From Salinicola socius (GTDB lineage: Bacteria; Pseudomonadota; Gammaproteobacteria; Pseudomonadales; Halomonadaceae): a stretch of 64,000 nucleotides of DNA. Positions 1,536-11,049 of this stretch are shown here, piece by piece. Where the stretch lies: positions 1-64,000 of the forward strand of contig NZ_MSDO01000005.1 of NCBI RefSeq assembly GCF_001937195.1, given 5' to 3'. Position numbers and translations under genes: made by a program. The notes beneath the pieces are model-generated. The model was not told the DNA's origin and did no database searches. It saw only the letters and a program-made list of their open reading frames with translations. Every line of letters begins with the position of its first letter. Position 1 is the first letter of the stretch.

Positions 1536-2588
1536 CTACTGCATGGCTTGCAGCGCTTCGATCAGGCTACTCATCTCGTCATCGGTGCCGATCGAAATAC
1601 GCAGGAAGTCGCGAAGTCCATCCTTGTCGAAATGCCGTACCAGAATGCCACGCTCGCGCAAGCCGCCGAAAATCGTCGCGCCACTATGCTCTGCATGGCG
1701 CACGAACAGGAAATTGGTCTGCGATGGCAGGACGTCGAAGCCCAACGATGCGAGCTGCTGGCGTGTCCACTCCCGCGTCGCGATCACCTGGTCGCAGCAG
1801 GCCCGGAAATGGCTCTCGTCTTCCAACGAAGCGATGGCGACTTCACTGGCCAGCATGTCGATCGGGTAGGAATTGAACGAGTTTTTCACTCGCTCAAGGC
1901 CTTCGATGAGTTCGCGGGAGCCGATCGCGTAACCCACGCGCAGCCCGGCCAGGCTGCGAGATTTCGACAGGGTCCCGGTGACCAGAAGATTGGGATGATC
2001 GGCGACCAGGGGTACGGCACTCTCGCCGCCGAAATCGACGTAGGCCTCGTCGACCAGAACGACGCTCTCGGTGATACGCGCGAGCAACTGCGCAATCGCC
2101 TGGCGCGGATGACCATGGCCGGTCGGGGCATTGGGATTGGCGAACACCACGCCACCGTTATCGCTCTCGAATGCCTCGAGAGCGATCTGCCATTGATCGT
2201 CCAGTGCCACGGTGCGGTAGGCAATGTCGTACAGCTTGCAATAGACCGGATAGAAACTGTAGCTGATCGCCGGCATCAACAGTGGCTTCGGCTGACAGAA
2301 GAAAGCCTGGAAAGCCAGCGCCAACACCTCATCGGAACCATTGCCGACAAAGACCTGTTCCGGTTCCACGCCGTGCGTCTTCGCCAGTGCTTCACGTAGC
2401 GCCAACGACTCGGGGTCCGGGTAAAGACGCAGATGATCCACCGCAAACCGCTGCAGCACCTGCTCGACCGCGGGGGAGGGCGGATAAGGGTTCTCGTTGG
2501 TGTTGAGCTTGATCAGTTTTTCGCGCGGCTGTTCGCCCGGTACGTAGGGTGTCAGAGCGCGAACGGCGGGACTCCAGAATTGACTCAT
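1536..2588 (-). CDS. hisC: histidinol-phosphate aminotransferase
   Basis: A PLP-dependent aminotransferase (fold type I) of 350 residues that converts imidazole-acetol phosphate and glutamate to histidinol phosphate in histidine synthesis. Visible family marks are LNTNENPYPPSP near the N-terminus (residues 28-39), NPNAPTG at 151-157, DEAYVDF at 180-186 and the PLP lysine in TGTLSKSRSLAG (Lys209), then RVGY. Length is normal for HisC. It stands alone, about 9 kb from hisBHAF, as is common in gammaproteobacteria where hisC2 is uncoupled from the main his cluster. The related aromatic aminotransferase activity of some HisC proteins cannot be excluded. Confidence 0.9.
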   Translation of the reverse strand: MSQFWSPAVRALTPYVPGEQPREKLIKLNTNENPYPPSPAVEQVLQRFAVDHLRLYPDPESLALREALAKTHGVEPEQVFVGNGSDEVLALAFQAFFCQPKPLLMPAISYSFYPVYCKLYDIAYRTVALDDQWQIALEAFESDNGGVVFANPNAPTGHGHPRQAIAQLLARITESVVLVDEAYVDFGGESAVPLVADHPNLLVTGTLSKSRSLAGLRVGYAIGSRELIEGLERVKNSFNSYPIDMLASEVAIASLEDESHFRACCDQVIATREWTRQQLASLGFDVLPSQTNFLFVRHAEHSGATIFGGLRERGILVRHFDKDGLRDFLRISIGTDDEMSSLIEALQAMQ

Positions 2589-2777
2589 GATCTCTCGCGG
2601 GCACGTGTGTTGCGGGGGCCGAATCGGCGCTTTCGGGCAGCGTTTATAGTGACGTCAGGCCTGAATCGACGCAAGCCGTCTCACGGAATAAGGGCGGAAC
2701 GGTTGATTAGTGCTCTAACGGCCGCATCTAGCAAGTATCCGATTCACCATCTGCATCACTGTCATTCAAGGAATTTC

Positions 2778-3875
2778 ATGGTTTACGACAAGCTGCTTTC
2801 ACCCATTACCGTCGGTGACGTCGAACTCTCCAATCGAGTCATGATGGCGCCATTGACCCGAGCCCGTACGCCGGACAGCGTGCCGGGAGTTCTGCAGGCG
2901 GAGTATTACGCCCAGCGCGCCAACTCGGGGCTGATCATCAGCGAAGCGACCAATATCTCGCCGACCGCTCGTGGCTATGTCTACACACCGGGGATCTGGA
3001 CCGACGCTCAGGAAACGGGCTGGCGCCAGGTCGTCGATGCCGTGCACGACGCCGGCGGCAGAATCGCGCTCCAGCTGTGGCACGTCGGGCGTATCTCGCA
3101 CGAGATGGTACAGCCGGAGGGCCAGGCCCCCGTCGCGCCCAGCGCATTGCTTGCGGAAGGGGCCAACTGCTTCGTCGAATTCGAAGACGGCAGTTCCGGC
3201 CAGCACCCCACCAGCACGCCGCGGGCGCTGGAACTCGACGAAATTCCCAGTGTCATCGACGACTACCGCCAGGCGGCCAAGCGCGCCAAGCGGGCGGGTT
3301 TCGATCTGGTCGAGGTGCACGCCGCCAACGCCTATCTGCTGCAGCAGTTCCTTGCCACCGGCAGCAACCAGCGCACCGATCGCTATGGCGGCAGCGTGGT
3401 CAACCGGGCCCGTCTGCTGCTGGAAGTCGTCGATGCGGTGACCGAAGTCATGGGCGCGGGTCGCGTCGGCGTGCGGTTGTCGCCGTTCATCGAAATCTTC
3501 GGGTTATCGGATGACGAGCCCGAAGCGATGATGGACTATCTGGCCGGTGAATTGAGCCGTCGCCAGATCGCCTACCTGCACATCAATGAGCCCGACTGGA
3601 CCGGCGAGGGCCCGCAGCTGAGCGATGACTTCCGTCGCAATCTGCGCGAGAGCTTCACCGGTACGCTGATCTACTGCGGGCACTACACGGCCGAGCGCGC
3701 TGAGGCGCTGATCGAGCACGGTCTGGGTGATGCCGCTGCCTTTGGGCGAGCGTATATCGCCAATCCGGATCTGGTCGAGCGCTTTCGCCGCGACGCGGCC
3801 CTCAACGAACCGGATCCGGAGACTTTCTACGGCGGTGGTGCAAAAGGCTATACTGACTATCCGACGCTGGATTGA
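2778..3875 (+). CDS. Old Yellow Enzyme family alkene reductase
   Basis: An FMN-dependent NADPH:flavin oxidoreductase of 365 residues, the NemA/OYE family that reduces activated C=C bonds, N-ethylmaleimide or nitro compounds. The TIM-barrel start reads LLSPITVGDVELSNRVMMAPLTRAR; LWHVGRISH holds the His-containing flavin/substrate region, followed by AP.APSA. HAANAYLLQQFL and the family signature NQRTDRYGGS come next, and GRAYIANPDLVERF near the C-terminus binds the FMN phosphate. The reading frame is open further upstream, but the ATG at 2778 is chosen because CAAGGA precedes it and it begins the conserved domain. Divergent from hisC. The physiological substrate is unknown. Confidence 0.88.
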   Translation: MVYDKLLSPITVGDVELSNRVMMAPLTRARTPDSVPGVLQAEYYAQRANSGLIISEATNISPTARGYVYTPGIWTDAQETGWRQVVDAVHDAGGRIALQLWHVGRISHEMVQPEGQAPVAPSALLAEGANCFVEFEDGSSGQHPTSTPRALELDEIPSVIDDYRQAAKRAKRAGFDLVEVHAANAYLLQQFLATGSNQRTDRYGGSVVNRARLLLEVVDAVTEVMGAGRVGVRLSPFIEIFGLSDDEPEAMMDYLAGELSRRQIAYLHINEPDWTGEGPQLSDDFRRNLRESFTGTLIYCGHYTAERAEALIEHGLGDAAAFGRAYIANPDLVERFRRDAALNEPDPETFYGGGAKGYTDYPTLD

Positions 3876-7246: not shown

Positions 7247-8391
7247 AGGGTAATGACAAGGGCACTCGCCAGGGAATGCGTCAGGGCGAGCGCCAGGAAA
7301 AGTTTCAGGCCAATGAATTCGTCGATGCGGATCTCGCGCTGCTCGATCGGCCGCTGCTGGACGTGCGGGCGCCGATCGAGTTCGCGGCCGGCGCCTTGCC
7401 GGGCGCGATCAACCTGCCACTGATGAACGACGACGAGCGTCGCGAGGTCGGTATTCGCTACAAGCACGCGGGGCAGGCTTCCGCGGTCGAGCTGGGTAAT
7501 CGCCTGGTTTCCGGGGAGAGTCGCGACGCGCGCCTGAGCGCCTGGGAGCGGGCCATCGAGGCGGCGCCGGATAGCGTGATCTACTGTTTTCGTGGCGGGA
7601 TGCGCTCGAAGATTTCGCAGCAGTGGCTCGCCGAACGCGGTTATCCGCTGCCCCGCATCCGTGGCGGCTGGAAAGCGATGCGCAGCCGACTGATCGAGAC
7701 GCTAGAATCCCATAGTCAGGCACCTTTGCTGCTGGTGGCCGGGCTGACCGGCTGCGCCAAGACGGCGCTGATCAATTCGCTGGATTCGGGTGTGGACCTG
7801 GAAGGCCACGCGCGCCACAAGGGCTCCGCCTTTGGCCAGCATCCGCTGGCCGGGCCGTCGCAGATCGATTTCGAACATGGGTTGACGCTGGATCTGGTGC
7901 GCCTGCCGCATGCGCGGGTGGTCGAGGACGAGTCGCAGCGCATCGGCCGGCTGGCGGTTCCGGCCACTTTCTGGCAGTCGATGAAGATGGCCCCGTGCAT
8001 TCGTGTCGAGATGCCGCTGGAGTGGCGTCTGGAACAGATACGCAAGGACTACATCGAAGATCTGAGTTCGACCTATCATCGCGATTACGGTCCGCATCTG
8101 GGCGAAGTGCTGTTTCGCAAGCAGCTCTCCGGCGCCCTCAAGCGTTTGGGTAAACGTCTGGGCGGTGAACGTCTGGCGCGGCTGATCGAGGCCCAGCAGC
8201 GGGCGTTCTCGGCCCAGCGTCACGGCAACGTTCAGGCACACGACGATTGGCTCGCGCCATTGCTGCGGGAGTACTACGACCCCATGTATCGTCATCAGAT
8301 CGACCATCAGCCCCGGCCGACGCTGCATGTCGGCGACTGGGACAGCTGTCTGGCGGTGGCGCGACAATGGGAGCGAGAGCAGACCGGCTAG
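7243..8391 (+). CDS. selU: tRNA 2-selenouridine synthase
   Basis: SelU (MnmH/YbbB) replaces the sulfur of 2-thiouridine at the wobble base of tRNA-Lys, Glu and Gln by selenium using SelD product. It has an N-terminal rhodanese domain (LLDVRAPIEF at 39-48, catalytic Cys115 in YCFRGGMRSK) and a C-terminal P-loop domain (GLTGCAKT at 167-174, DLEGHARHKGSAFG). The best start is a TTG at 7243 that overlaps the selD stop as TTGA, with GAGG seven bases upstream; an ATG at 7276 is the alternative and would leave the domains intact. With selD directly upstream and no selA or selB in view, selenium here may serve tRNA modification; the rest of the genome would have to be checked for that. Confidence 0.93.
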   Translation: MKGNDKGTRQGMRQGERQEKFQANEFVDADLALLDRPLLDVRAPIEFAAGALPGAINLPLMNDDERREVGIRYKHAGQASAVELGNRLVSGESRDARLSAWERAIEAAPDSVIYCFRGGMRSKISQQWLAERGYPLPRIRGGWKAMRSRLIETLESHSQAPLLLVAGLTGCAKTALINSLDSGVDLEGHARHKGSAFGQHPLAGPSQIDFEHGLTLDLVRLPHARVVEDESQRIGRLAVPATFWQSMKMAPCIRVEMPLEWRLEQIRKDYIEDLSSTYHRDYGPHLGEVLFRKQLSGALKRLGKRLGGERLARLIEAQQRAFSAQRHGNVQAHDDWLAPLLREYYDPMYRHQIDHQPRPTLHVGDWDSCLAVARQWEREQTG

Positions 8392-8410
8392 CCAGGGCCG
8401 TGGCTGAAAT

Positions 8411-9082
8411 CTAGCGGTATTCGAGCCATTGCGTCATGATCCGATCCAGCAGCGCGGCCTGCCGATCGAAGCGCTTGGGGTCGCGAAGCATCTCGTCTCG
8501 GGTGTGAATGGTCGGAATATTGGCAGCCGTTGGCAGGTCGTGGTCGCAAAGGGCCGTGGTGTCCTGAGCCGTCAGCTCCAGATGCCACTGCAGCGCGATG
8601 ACGCGCCCCAGGTCCCAGGCAAAGCCCTGCACCGGTCCGGCTGGCGTGCTGCCCAGCGGCAGGCAACCATCCGGCAGGCCGAAGATATCGCGGTGCCAGA
8701 GCAGCGCCTCGAAGGTCTCCGGTAGATCGAAGGGGCTTTCGTCTGCCAGCGTCAGCGGTTGCCAGCCGATTTCCGGCTGCACCGCGGGAGAGACGATGGC
8801 GCCAAGCGACTCGGCGATCAGGCCGGCGCCGTAGCCGATGCCCAGCACCGGTTTGCTGCTCTTCATGGCGCGGTCGACCAGCTTGCGTTCCCGCTTGAGC
8901 AGGGCCGCCTCGGGCGGTTCGAGCGCGTCGAGCAGCACCAACGCATCGCAGTTGGCCAACGGCGGCGGCAGTTCGCCCTCGTCCAGTCGGCAGTGGTTAT
9001 GGCTATGGCCCATGCCGGTGAGCCAATCCGCCAGACGGGCGGGGCCGAACAACGGGCTATGCTGGAGGAAATAGATATGCAT
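8411..9082 (-). CDS. class I glutamine amidotransferase-like protein, nucleophile lost
   Basis: A 223-residue protein with the fold plan of free-standing class I glutamine amidotransferases (GuaA-N/peptidase C26 type): MHIYFLQHSPLFGPARLADWL start, a DALVLLDAL strand, the nucleophile-elbow region VLGIGYGAGLIAESLGA at 79-95, WHRDIFGLP, and ALQWHLEL, which keeps the His and Glu of the triad. The elbow normally reads GICLGHQ; here it is GIGYGAG, so the catalytic Cys is replaced by Gly83 and the HQ pair is gone. The reading is unambiguous on the DNA. It therefore probably cannot hydrolyse glutamine. The internal ATG at 9082 was chosen over a TTG at 9142, which would coincide with the divergent gene. 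Convergent with selU. Confidence 0.75.
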   Translation of the reverse strand: MHIYFLQHSPLFGPARLADWLTGMGHSHNHCRLDEGELPPPLANCDALVLLDALEPPEAALLKRERKLVDRAMKSSKPVLGIGYGAGLIAESLGAIVSPAVQPEIGWQPLTLADESPFDLPETFEALLWHRDIFGLPDGCLPLGSTPAGPVQGFAWDLGRVIALQWHLELTAQDTTALCDHDLPTAANIPTIHTRDEMLRDPKRFDRQAALLDRIMTQWLEYR

Positions 9083-9141
9083 GATAGGCCCATCATGGGG
9101 ATGACCAGGCCGCTCCACAAGCGGGTAACGGGGATTTAGCA

Positions 9142-9444
9142 ATGGCCATTCGTGCCCAGATCCTCGAACAGATCTACACCATCGTGGCGCAGATCCCGCC
9201 GGGACGCGTCACGACCTATGGCCGGATCGCCCAAATGACGGAAGGGGCGACAGCGCGTCTGGTAGGCACGGCGATGCGCCAACTGCCCACCGGTCACGAT
9301 CTGCCCTGGTACCGGGTCATTGGCGCCAGTCGGCGAATTGCCGACCATGGTGGCGCCCAACGCCAGCACGAGCAATTGCGCGCCGAGGGTGTCGTGTTCG
9401 ACGCCAGCGGCCGCGTACCGATGCATTTGATGTGGCCAGAATGA
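9142..9444 (+). CDS. alkyltransferase-like DNA-binding protein (ATL)
   Basis: A 100-residue member of the MGMT/Ogt C-terminal domain family. It has the winged-helix recognition segment GRVTTYGRIAQM and RLVGTAMR, but at the active site it reads LPWYRVIG, where the true methyltransferases have PCHRV: Trp56 replaces the methyl-accepting Cys. ATL proteins with this change bind O6-alkylguanine, flip the base out and hand the lesion to nucleotide excision repair without repairing it themselves. The length without an N-terminal domain is also typical of ATL. Start codons of this gene and its minus-strand neighbour are about 60 nt apart, and the gene leads into the DUF416 gene 10 nt downstream. Confidence 0.88.
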   Translation: MAIRAQILEQIYTIVAQIPPGRVTTYGRIAQMTEGATARLVGTAMRQLPTGHDLPWYRVIGASRRIADHGGAQRQHEQLRAEGVVFDASGRVPMHLMWPE

Positions 9445-10054: not shown

Positions 10055-10133
10055 CCAGCCGGCTGTGGATAAACCGGCTACGCTAGAGGGTGTTGATAAC
10101 CGTTTGCGGGGTGCCGGATGCTGACACTGAACC

Positions 10134-10189
10134 GGTGGACGGTGGACGGTGGACGGTGGACGGTGGACGGTGGACGGTGGACGGTGGAC
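10134..10189. repeat. heptanucleotide microsatellite (GGTGGAC)8
   Basis: Eight perfect copies of the 7-nt unit GGTGGAC, from 10134 to 10189, lie 84 nt before the start codon of the next lipoprotein gene. A frame open from a GTG at 10090 runs through the array into that gene, but a strong AGGAGG at 10261 supports the later ATG. Because 7 is not a multiple of 3, copy-number change would shift the frame of any upstream translation and would alter the leader or promoter spacing. Confidence 0.95.
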
Positions 10190-10272
10190 GAAGGTCAAGG
10201 CGTTGCGGCATCGGGATCATGCCGACTGAGACAGGGAGCGGTCCGCAGGAATCACGTTCAAGGAGGAACATC

Positions 10273-11049
10273 ATGCAGAAAGGTTGGTGGATAGGCGGAA
10301 TGGTGCTGGTCAGCGTCATGCTGGCGGGTTGCCAGAGTCTGACAGGGTGGGGCGGCGATGCGCTGCGCACCGAACCGGTCGTCAAGCACGTGCACGAGCC
10401 CGGCTGTGAAGTCGATGGCTGTGCCAGCGTCAACGCCGCGTACCTGCGCTTCCCCGAGTCGTCACTGCTCTCGGCCGAGCTCGAGCGTCGCCTGTTCGGT
10501 CTGGCGAGCGGATTGAGCGACAATCCCGATGGCAATCCCATGGGGCAGGCAACGACCTTCGAGGATTTTTCCAGCCAGCTGTTCGCGGCCGCACAGAGCG
10601 CTCGCCAGGATGTGCCGGAACTGCCCGGCTACGAAGCCGATCTCAAGGCCGACGTCGTGGCAGATCGCGATGGTCTGCTGGTGATCGAGCTCGATGGCTA
10701 CCTCTACAGCGGCGGTGCGCACGGCTTGCCGTTGACTTCCTACATGGTGATCGAGCGCGATAAGCAGCAGGTCCTTGACCTTGACGACATGCTGTTGCCG
10801 GGACAGCGTCCGGCCTATGAGGCAGCTCTCGAGCGCGCCCACCGGCGCTGGCTCCAGTCCGATCAGGCATTCGGATTGTCCGAGCTGCAGTGGCCGTTCG
10901 CGACATCGGATAACGTAGCACCGCTGAAAGCGGGTCTGGCGATCAAGTATCAGGTCTATGATCTGGCGCCGTATGCAGTGGGCCAGCCGCAGCTGATGAT
11001 CCCTTACCCCGAACTCGATGGCATTCTCAAACCGCGCTACCTGCCTTGA
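10273..11049 (+). CDS. RsiV/DUF3298-family lipoprotein
   Basis: A 258-residue lipoprotein with signal MQKGWWIGGMVLVSVMLAGC (lipobox LAGC, Cys20). The mature part has a PdaC/DUF4163-like segment (AYLRFPE..) and a DUF3298-type C-terminal half with the characteristic YSGGAHG motif followed by a DLDDMLLPG strand-helix. Related proteins include YdgH-neighbour lipoproteins and the extracellular domain of RsiV, but no anti-sigma helix is present here. It is probably periplasmic, with unknown ligand. The ATG at 10273 has a perfect AGGAGG seven bases upstream. The GGTGGAC array in its leader could vary its expression. Confidence 0.75.
   Translation: MQKGWWIGGMVLVSVMLAGCQSLTGWGGDALRTEPVVKHVHEPGCEVDGCASVNAAYLRFPESSLLSAELERRLFGLASGLSDNPDGNPMGQATTFEDFSSQLFAAAQSARQDVPELPGYEADLKADVVADRDGLLVIELDGYLYSGGAHGLPLTSYMVIERDKQQVLDLDDMLLPGQRPAYEAALERAHRRWLQSDQAFGLSELQWPFATSDNVAPLKAGLAIKYQVYDLAPYAVGQPQLMIPYPELDGILKPRYLP

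Follow-up and report, generated by a model that had tools for sequence, protein, structure and literature searches.

The gene on the minus strand at positions 8411 to 9082 of the window, the stretch of 64,000 nucleotides from Salinicola socius that was analysed, probably encodes a stand-alone pseudoenzyme that has the fold of class I glutamine amidotransferases and in which a binding function persisted after catalysis was lost. Class I amidotransferases typically supply ammonia to a synthase. A free-standing amidotransferase in which the nucleophile has been lost, with the loss fixed across a family while a Cys-bearing sister is still alive, constitutes a clean natural experiment on the transition from enzyme to binding protein. 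In addition, the label "glutamine amidotransferase" on the Halomonadaceae copies would mislead about their activity. A previous inspection of the window (hereafter the sequence-only reading) had proposed a non-hydrolytic protein, perhaps with a binding or regulatory role, and this is the best reading of the data presented here.

The gene and its product

The open frame starts with ATG and has zero internal stops over 223 aa, in agreement with the intact gene without frameshift described before. Its product matches the class I glutamine amidotransferase profile PF00117 (E 6e-9, 36.2 bits versus a cut-off of 22.8). The relevant elements are the following:

8411 to 9082, minus strand: putative pseudo-glutamine amidotransferase gene (translation, 223 aa plus stop; PF00117; fold Z 31)
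8822 to 8842, minus strand: elbow of the former nucleophile, G81-I-G-Y-G-A-G87; active form GICLGAQ (translation and alignment with relatives)
8834 to 8836, minus strand: GGC, the codon of Gly83, where active relatives encode the catalytic Cys (Gly in all 62 orthologues)
8924 to 8929, minus strand: Asp52-Ala53 where the Gly-Gly of the oxyanion loop is expected (Gly-Gly in 67 of 68 Cys rows of the alignment, one row gapped)
8576 to 8584, minus strand: His167-Leu-Glu169, the other two triad residues (translation; both retained in 54 of 62 orthologues)

The elbow GIGYGAG without catalytic Cys is thus present as the sequence-only reading had described it. The active motif was given there as GICxGHQ, but this subfamily presents GICLGAQ instead. 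The retention of His-x-Glu, also claimed, is true of the window protein but not of the whole family, as the count above indicates. A second lesion, Asp52-Ala53 in place of the oxyanion-loop Gly-Gly, had not been mentioned. Of the residues that characterize the PF00117 class, the protein keeps the His and Glu of the triad and lacks both the nucleophilic Cys and the Gly-Gly. With Gly83 it would be unable to form the gamma-glutamyl thioester and, this chemistry being lost, no hydrolysis of glutamine, that is, no glutaminase activity, would be expected.

The genome of S. socius contains seven PF00117 matches, and the window protein is the exception among them, as the six others have Cys elbows. 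The presence of Gly in all the orthologues together with Cys in six of the seven class I matches of this genome is more than chance would give. The six Cys-bearing matches could also be taken as candidate partners, the protein forming a mixed complex with one of the cell's active class I amidotransferases and thereby stabilizing or inhibiting it. This possibility is very improbable, as its own genome (G000) has one match in the subfamily and the other matches are more distant.

Distribution in Halomonadaceae

A search of 117 genomes, 73 of which belong to Halomonadaceae (G000-G072), revealed the orthologue (loci L008-L069) in 62 of these 73. In every one of the 62 the frame is open, across many genera, the Cys position is occupied by Gly, and the gene adjoins two or more of the genes usually found around it (radA, selD, mnmH, an alkyltransferase-like gene, a DUF416 gene and hisF/A/H). 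The alignment with Halomonadaceae homologues, suggested previously as a check, consequently showed a loss of Cys common to all of them. A sequencing error as the source of Gly83 is ruled out by the same 62 orthologues. Named genomes carrying the gene include Salinicola, Halomonas, Chromohalobacter, Kushneria, Litchfieldella, Modicisalibacter, Onishia, Aidingimonas and Halotalea; the pattern employed to scan the named genomes favours Gly at the elbow, so that the resulting Gly-only alignment (A2) is not independent evidence. The 11 genomes of the family without orthologue are G015, four of genus g3, four of genus g4, G034 and G040. In G015 two neighbours are missing as well, which may reflect an assembly gap. 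The absence from 11 of 73 genomes implies that the gene is dispensable in some lineages.

Origin of the Cys loss

The lower-scoring matches that were fetched from the search of 117 genomes, above the weakest ones (26 loci, L070-L095), carry Cys in all cases, and beside none of these 26 loci was the usual neighbourhood found. Their Cys codons are TGC (16) and TGT (10), and the Gly codons of 59 of the 62 orthologues are GGC or GGT, one base away from the former. A profile search of the order matched 92 of 293 genomes. Among the best 40 match rows outside the family that had not been sampled previously, 39 presented Cys and one, L201 of family f21 (perhaps Pseudomonadaceae), presented Gly in a GSGFGAL elbow. 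The set of rows not belonging to the Gly clade of the family adds up to 72, in which L201 and L236 are the same gene and L181 and L239 likewise, so that its 68 Cys rows represent 67 genes.

In the careful tree, which was built omitting the Cys column and including 17 of the 62 Gly rows of the family, the latter formed one clade (support 99/91) with L070 as sister (99/92). An earlier, quick tree that included 27 of the 62 orthologues agreed with it. L070, located in genome G040 of the same family, has an intact GICLGGQ elbow, the Gly-Gly, the His and the Glu, and lies in a different neighbourhood. A single Gly clade with a Cys-bearing sister indicates one loss within the family; hence, the loss of Cys is best placed as a single event inside Halomonadaceae, after the split from the Cys-bearing sister lineage. 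Since this change from Cys to Gly, the gene has kept its position on the chromosome and has been under purifying selection, and the residues that handle glutamine have meanwhile drifted.

Cys was also replaced elsewhere. Close relatives were found in 6 of 119 genomes of the genus to which L201 belongs, with Cys in L237-L239 and Gly in L236 (the L201 gene), L240 and L241. The last three represent a second, independent Cys-to-Gly lineage, in which the triad His is also gone in all three; the tree test is compatible with one clade for these rows (p 0.67). A single origin of all the Cys-to-Gly changes was rejected when the f21 Gly rows were forced together with the family clade (AU p 0.0001, a somewhat optimistic value because the group was picked after an earlier tree had been seen). 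At the L236 locus (genome G257), a class III aminotransferase gene (2169-3416, minus strand) adjoins the Cys-less homologue. In the aminotransferase the motif LGKGLGGG is changed to LGGALGGG, so that its PLP lysine may be lost too. The Lys of that motif is retained in the five related loci L237-L241.

Selection and residue conservation

The dN/dS ratio, proposed in the sequence-only reading as a way to recognize decay, had a median of 0.173 and a range of 0.059-0.324 (Nei-Gojobori, 17 loci of the genus, 135 pairs with dS 0.1-1.5); dS was fairly high (median 0.87) and the ratios are thus approximate. This median is close to those of the neighbour genes: 0.120 for atl, 0.143 for yjaG (14 loci), 0.146 for mnmH and 0.092 for selD (atl, yjaG and hisH are the names that these neighbours presumably bear). 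The gene is under purifying selection, with a constraint slightly weaker than that of its neighbours, and drift is excluded. What is generally expected of a pseudoenzyme, a catalytic residue that is gone and purifying selection across species, was therefore observed. Gradual decay towards loss of the gene would fit the slightly higher ratio (0.173 versus 0.092-0.146) and the absence from 11 of 73 genomes of the family. However, the frame is open in all 62 orthologues, 28 positions are invariant among them and selection is purifying; decay is extremely improbable and refuted in practice. The earlier claim of a maintained non-hydrolytic protein instead of a decaying one was thereby borne out, 62 of 62 orthologues lacking the Cys under purifying selection.

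Many of the 28 invariant positions lie beyond the active site. Several of them (R16, D19, S27, E37, P150, D157, D213, R214 and W219) are variable in the Cys rows, although the Cys rows span the order and the Gly rows one family, for which a higher invariance is expected among the latter. The main groups are:

9023 to 9037, minus strand: R16..D19-W20, first helix (invariant 62/62; helix 15-23 in the model)
9002 to 9007, minus strand: H26-S27 (invariant 62/62)
8603 to 8614, minus strand: D157..R160 hairpin (both invariant 62/62; position 157 gapped in most Cys rows)
8426 to 8446, minus strand: D213-R214..W219, C-terminal helix (invariant 62/62; helix 203-220 in the model)

Apart from Gly83, L070 shares 24 of the 27 remaining invariants, the exceptions being S27T, P150E and R214L, and in the other 71 rows of the 72-row set the number shared has a median of 13 and does not exceed 19; as L070 is the nearest kin of the orthologues, part of this sharing is expected from kinship alone. 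Since the sister with Cys has nearly all the invariants as well, the simplest account would be that they serve a function that predates the loss of Cys. The binding function would in this manner be older than the loss of the chemistry.

The active site presents another picture. Four residues that are fixed or nearly fixed in the Cys rows have been lost to different extents in the 62 orthologues: Gly52 is kept in 7 (lost in 55), the elbow Gln in 12 (lost in 50), Gln165 in 45 (lost in 17) and His130 in 53 (lost in 9). These losses, together with the lack of an attached output domain, make it rather unlikely that the protein is a ligand sensor, whose old pocket would bind glutamine, glutamate or a gamma-glutamyl compound uncut and signal the nutrient state, even though His167 (60/62), Glu169 (56/62), Glu104 (53/62) and Gly106 (59/62) are mostly retained, as such a sensor would have it. 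The His and Glu, present jointly in 54 of the 62, and the invariant Ser27 could also be claimed for an enzyme still active with a different chemistry, through His167/Glu169 or another nucleophile. We consider this improbable: no substitute Cys is conserved in at least 85 percent of the orthologues, Ser27 is situated at the start of strand 2 in the model, which by the logic of the fold would place it on the side of the sheet far from the elbow, and 8 of the 62 orthologues retain the gene without the His or the Glu.

With regard to the pseudoenzyme with a binding function, the retained job would most likely be docking to a protein partner, an uncertain assignment that we infer from the conservation pattern. 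A protein partner seems likelier than glutamine because the pocket drifts while the other sites do not. Docking would take place via the conserved residues that are largely off the old active site, namely the first helix, positions 26-27, the 157-160 hairpin and the C-terminal helix. Alternatively, the invariant residues could be due to the structural packing of the first against the last helix and not to an interface. The retention of His167 and Glu169 in most orthologues counts against pure docking, which does not require them.

Fold and comparison with known systems

The AlphaFold2 model, for which the window protein together with 53 named orthologues served as input, showed a mean pLDDT of 94.4 and a pTM of 0.92. 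In it, R16-W20 belong to helix 15-23 and R204-W219 to the last helix (203-220). The best matches among solved structures were 3m3p (Z 31.4), 3l7n (30.6), DnfC of Alcaligenes (8khs, 28.9), 1o1y (28.9) and 7d54 (26.9), all of them with the same full-length single-domain fold (Z 27-31). Unlike the window protein, 3l7n and 1o1y align with a Cys at the elbow. At the family level, the best matches were the NCBIfam "glutamine amidotransferase" families PRK07053, PRK08250 and PRK06490, each matched by 30 of the 30 members of alignment A1. The window protein scored 91, 65 and 54 bits versus cut-offs of 250, 301 and 339, respectively, so that it falls outside the PRK07053 equivalog (91.4 bits against the curated cut-off). 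In PHROGs there was only a weak match. The gamma-glutamyl peptidase 1 of Arabidopsis (9k7i-l) has the fold in common (Z about 23) with 15-16 percent identity; according to the titles of those entries it is a peptidase with a gamma-Glu intermediate, whereas the window protein is without nucleophile.

Inactive amidotransferase domains are already known, and this stand-alone, family-wide form would be a variant of them. The S2 domain of human carbamoyl phosphate synthetase CPS1 is characterized as inactive and amidotransferase-like, with Ser for Cys (PMC4655335). The Cys is replaced there as it is here and the folds match (Z 17), but CPS1 has Ser and the window protein Gly. Moreover, the dead domain of CPS1 is part of a large synthase, while the window protein is a separate single domain with neither a fused synthase nor an operon partner at its locus. 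The result listings and the starts of abstracts from our literature searches contained no description of this stand-alone protein.

Genomic neighbourhood

The gene stands alone between two neighbours, convergent with one and divergent from the other, with no operon partner:

7276 to 8391, plus strand: mnmH, tRNA 2-selenouridine synthase, convergent neighbour (NF008751 above cut-off)
9142 to 9444, plus strand: MGMT-type DNA-binding-domain protein (alkyltransferase-like), divergent neighbour at 59 bases (PF01035)

Promoter and terminator scans of positions 8300-9300 found nothing. A link with tRNA selenation (mnmH, selD) was unsupported, as the gene is kept in seven loci where mnmH was undetected by tblastn at E 1e-4 (L054, L055, L057, L058, L059, L062 and L069).

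The neighbour at 9142-9444 is divergent in 58 of the 58 loci that have it, with gaps of 18-227 bases. MGMT enzymes carry the catalytic motif PCHR. This neighbour has PWYR at the corresponding site, and the Trp is present in the same 58 loci (PW.R); judging from this motif, its product looks like an alkyltransferase-like protein. Two enzyme-like proteins that are apparently non-catalytic would then be encoded head to head. In a quite improbable reading, the window protein would be a family-specific pseudo-glutaminase with a dedicated partner, and the two proteins, whose genes are divergently paired in 58 of the 62 loci, would perhaps have a promoter region and a function in common, for instance in the handling of DNA damage. 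A strict link between them was unsupported, as L060, L061, L063 and L064 keep the gene without this neighbour, and it is also contradicted by G034, where the neighbour is present and the gene absent. The corresponding locus of G034 (L217) contains radA, the alkyltransferase-like gene, the DUF416 gene and hisF together, and no match to selD, mnmH or the pseudo-amidotransferase gene was obtained there.

Further along the window, the ORF at 10090-11049 has a translation that starts with repeated VDGGRWT units (positions 10090-10250). The DNA ahead of what resembles a lipoprotein gene may accordingly contain a short tandem repeat.
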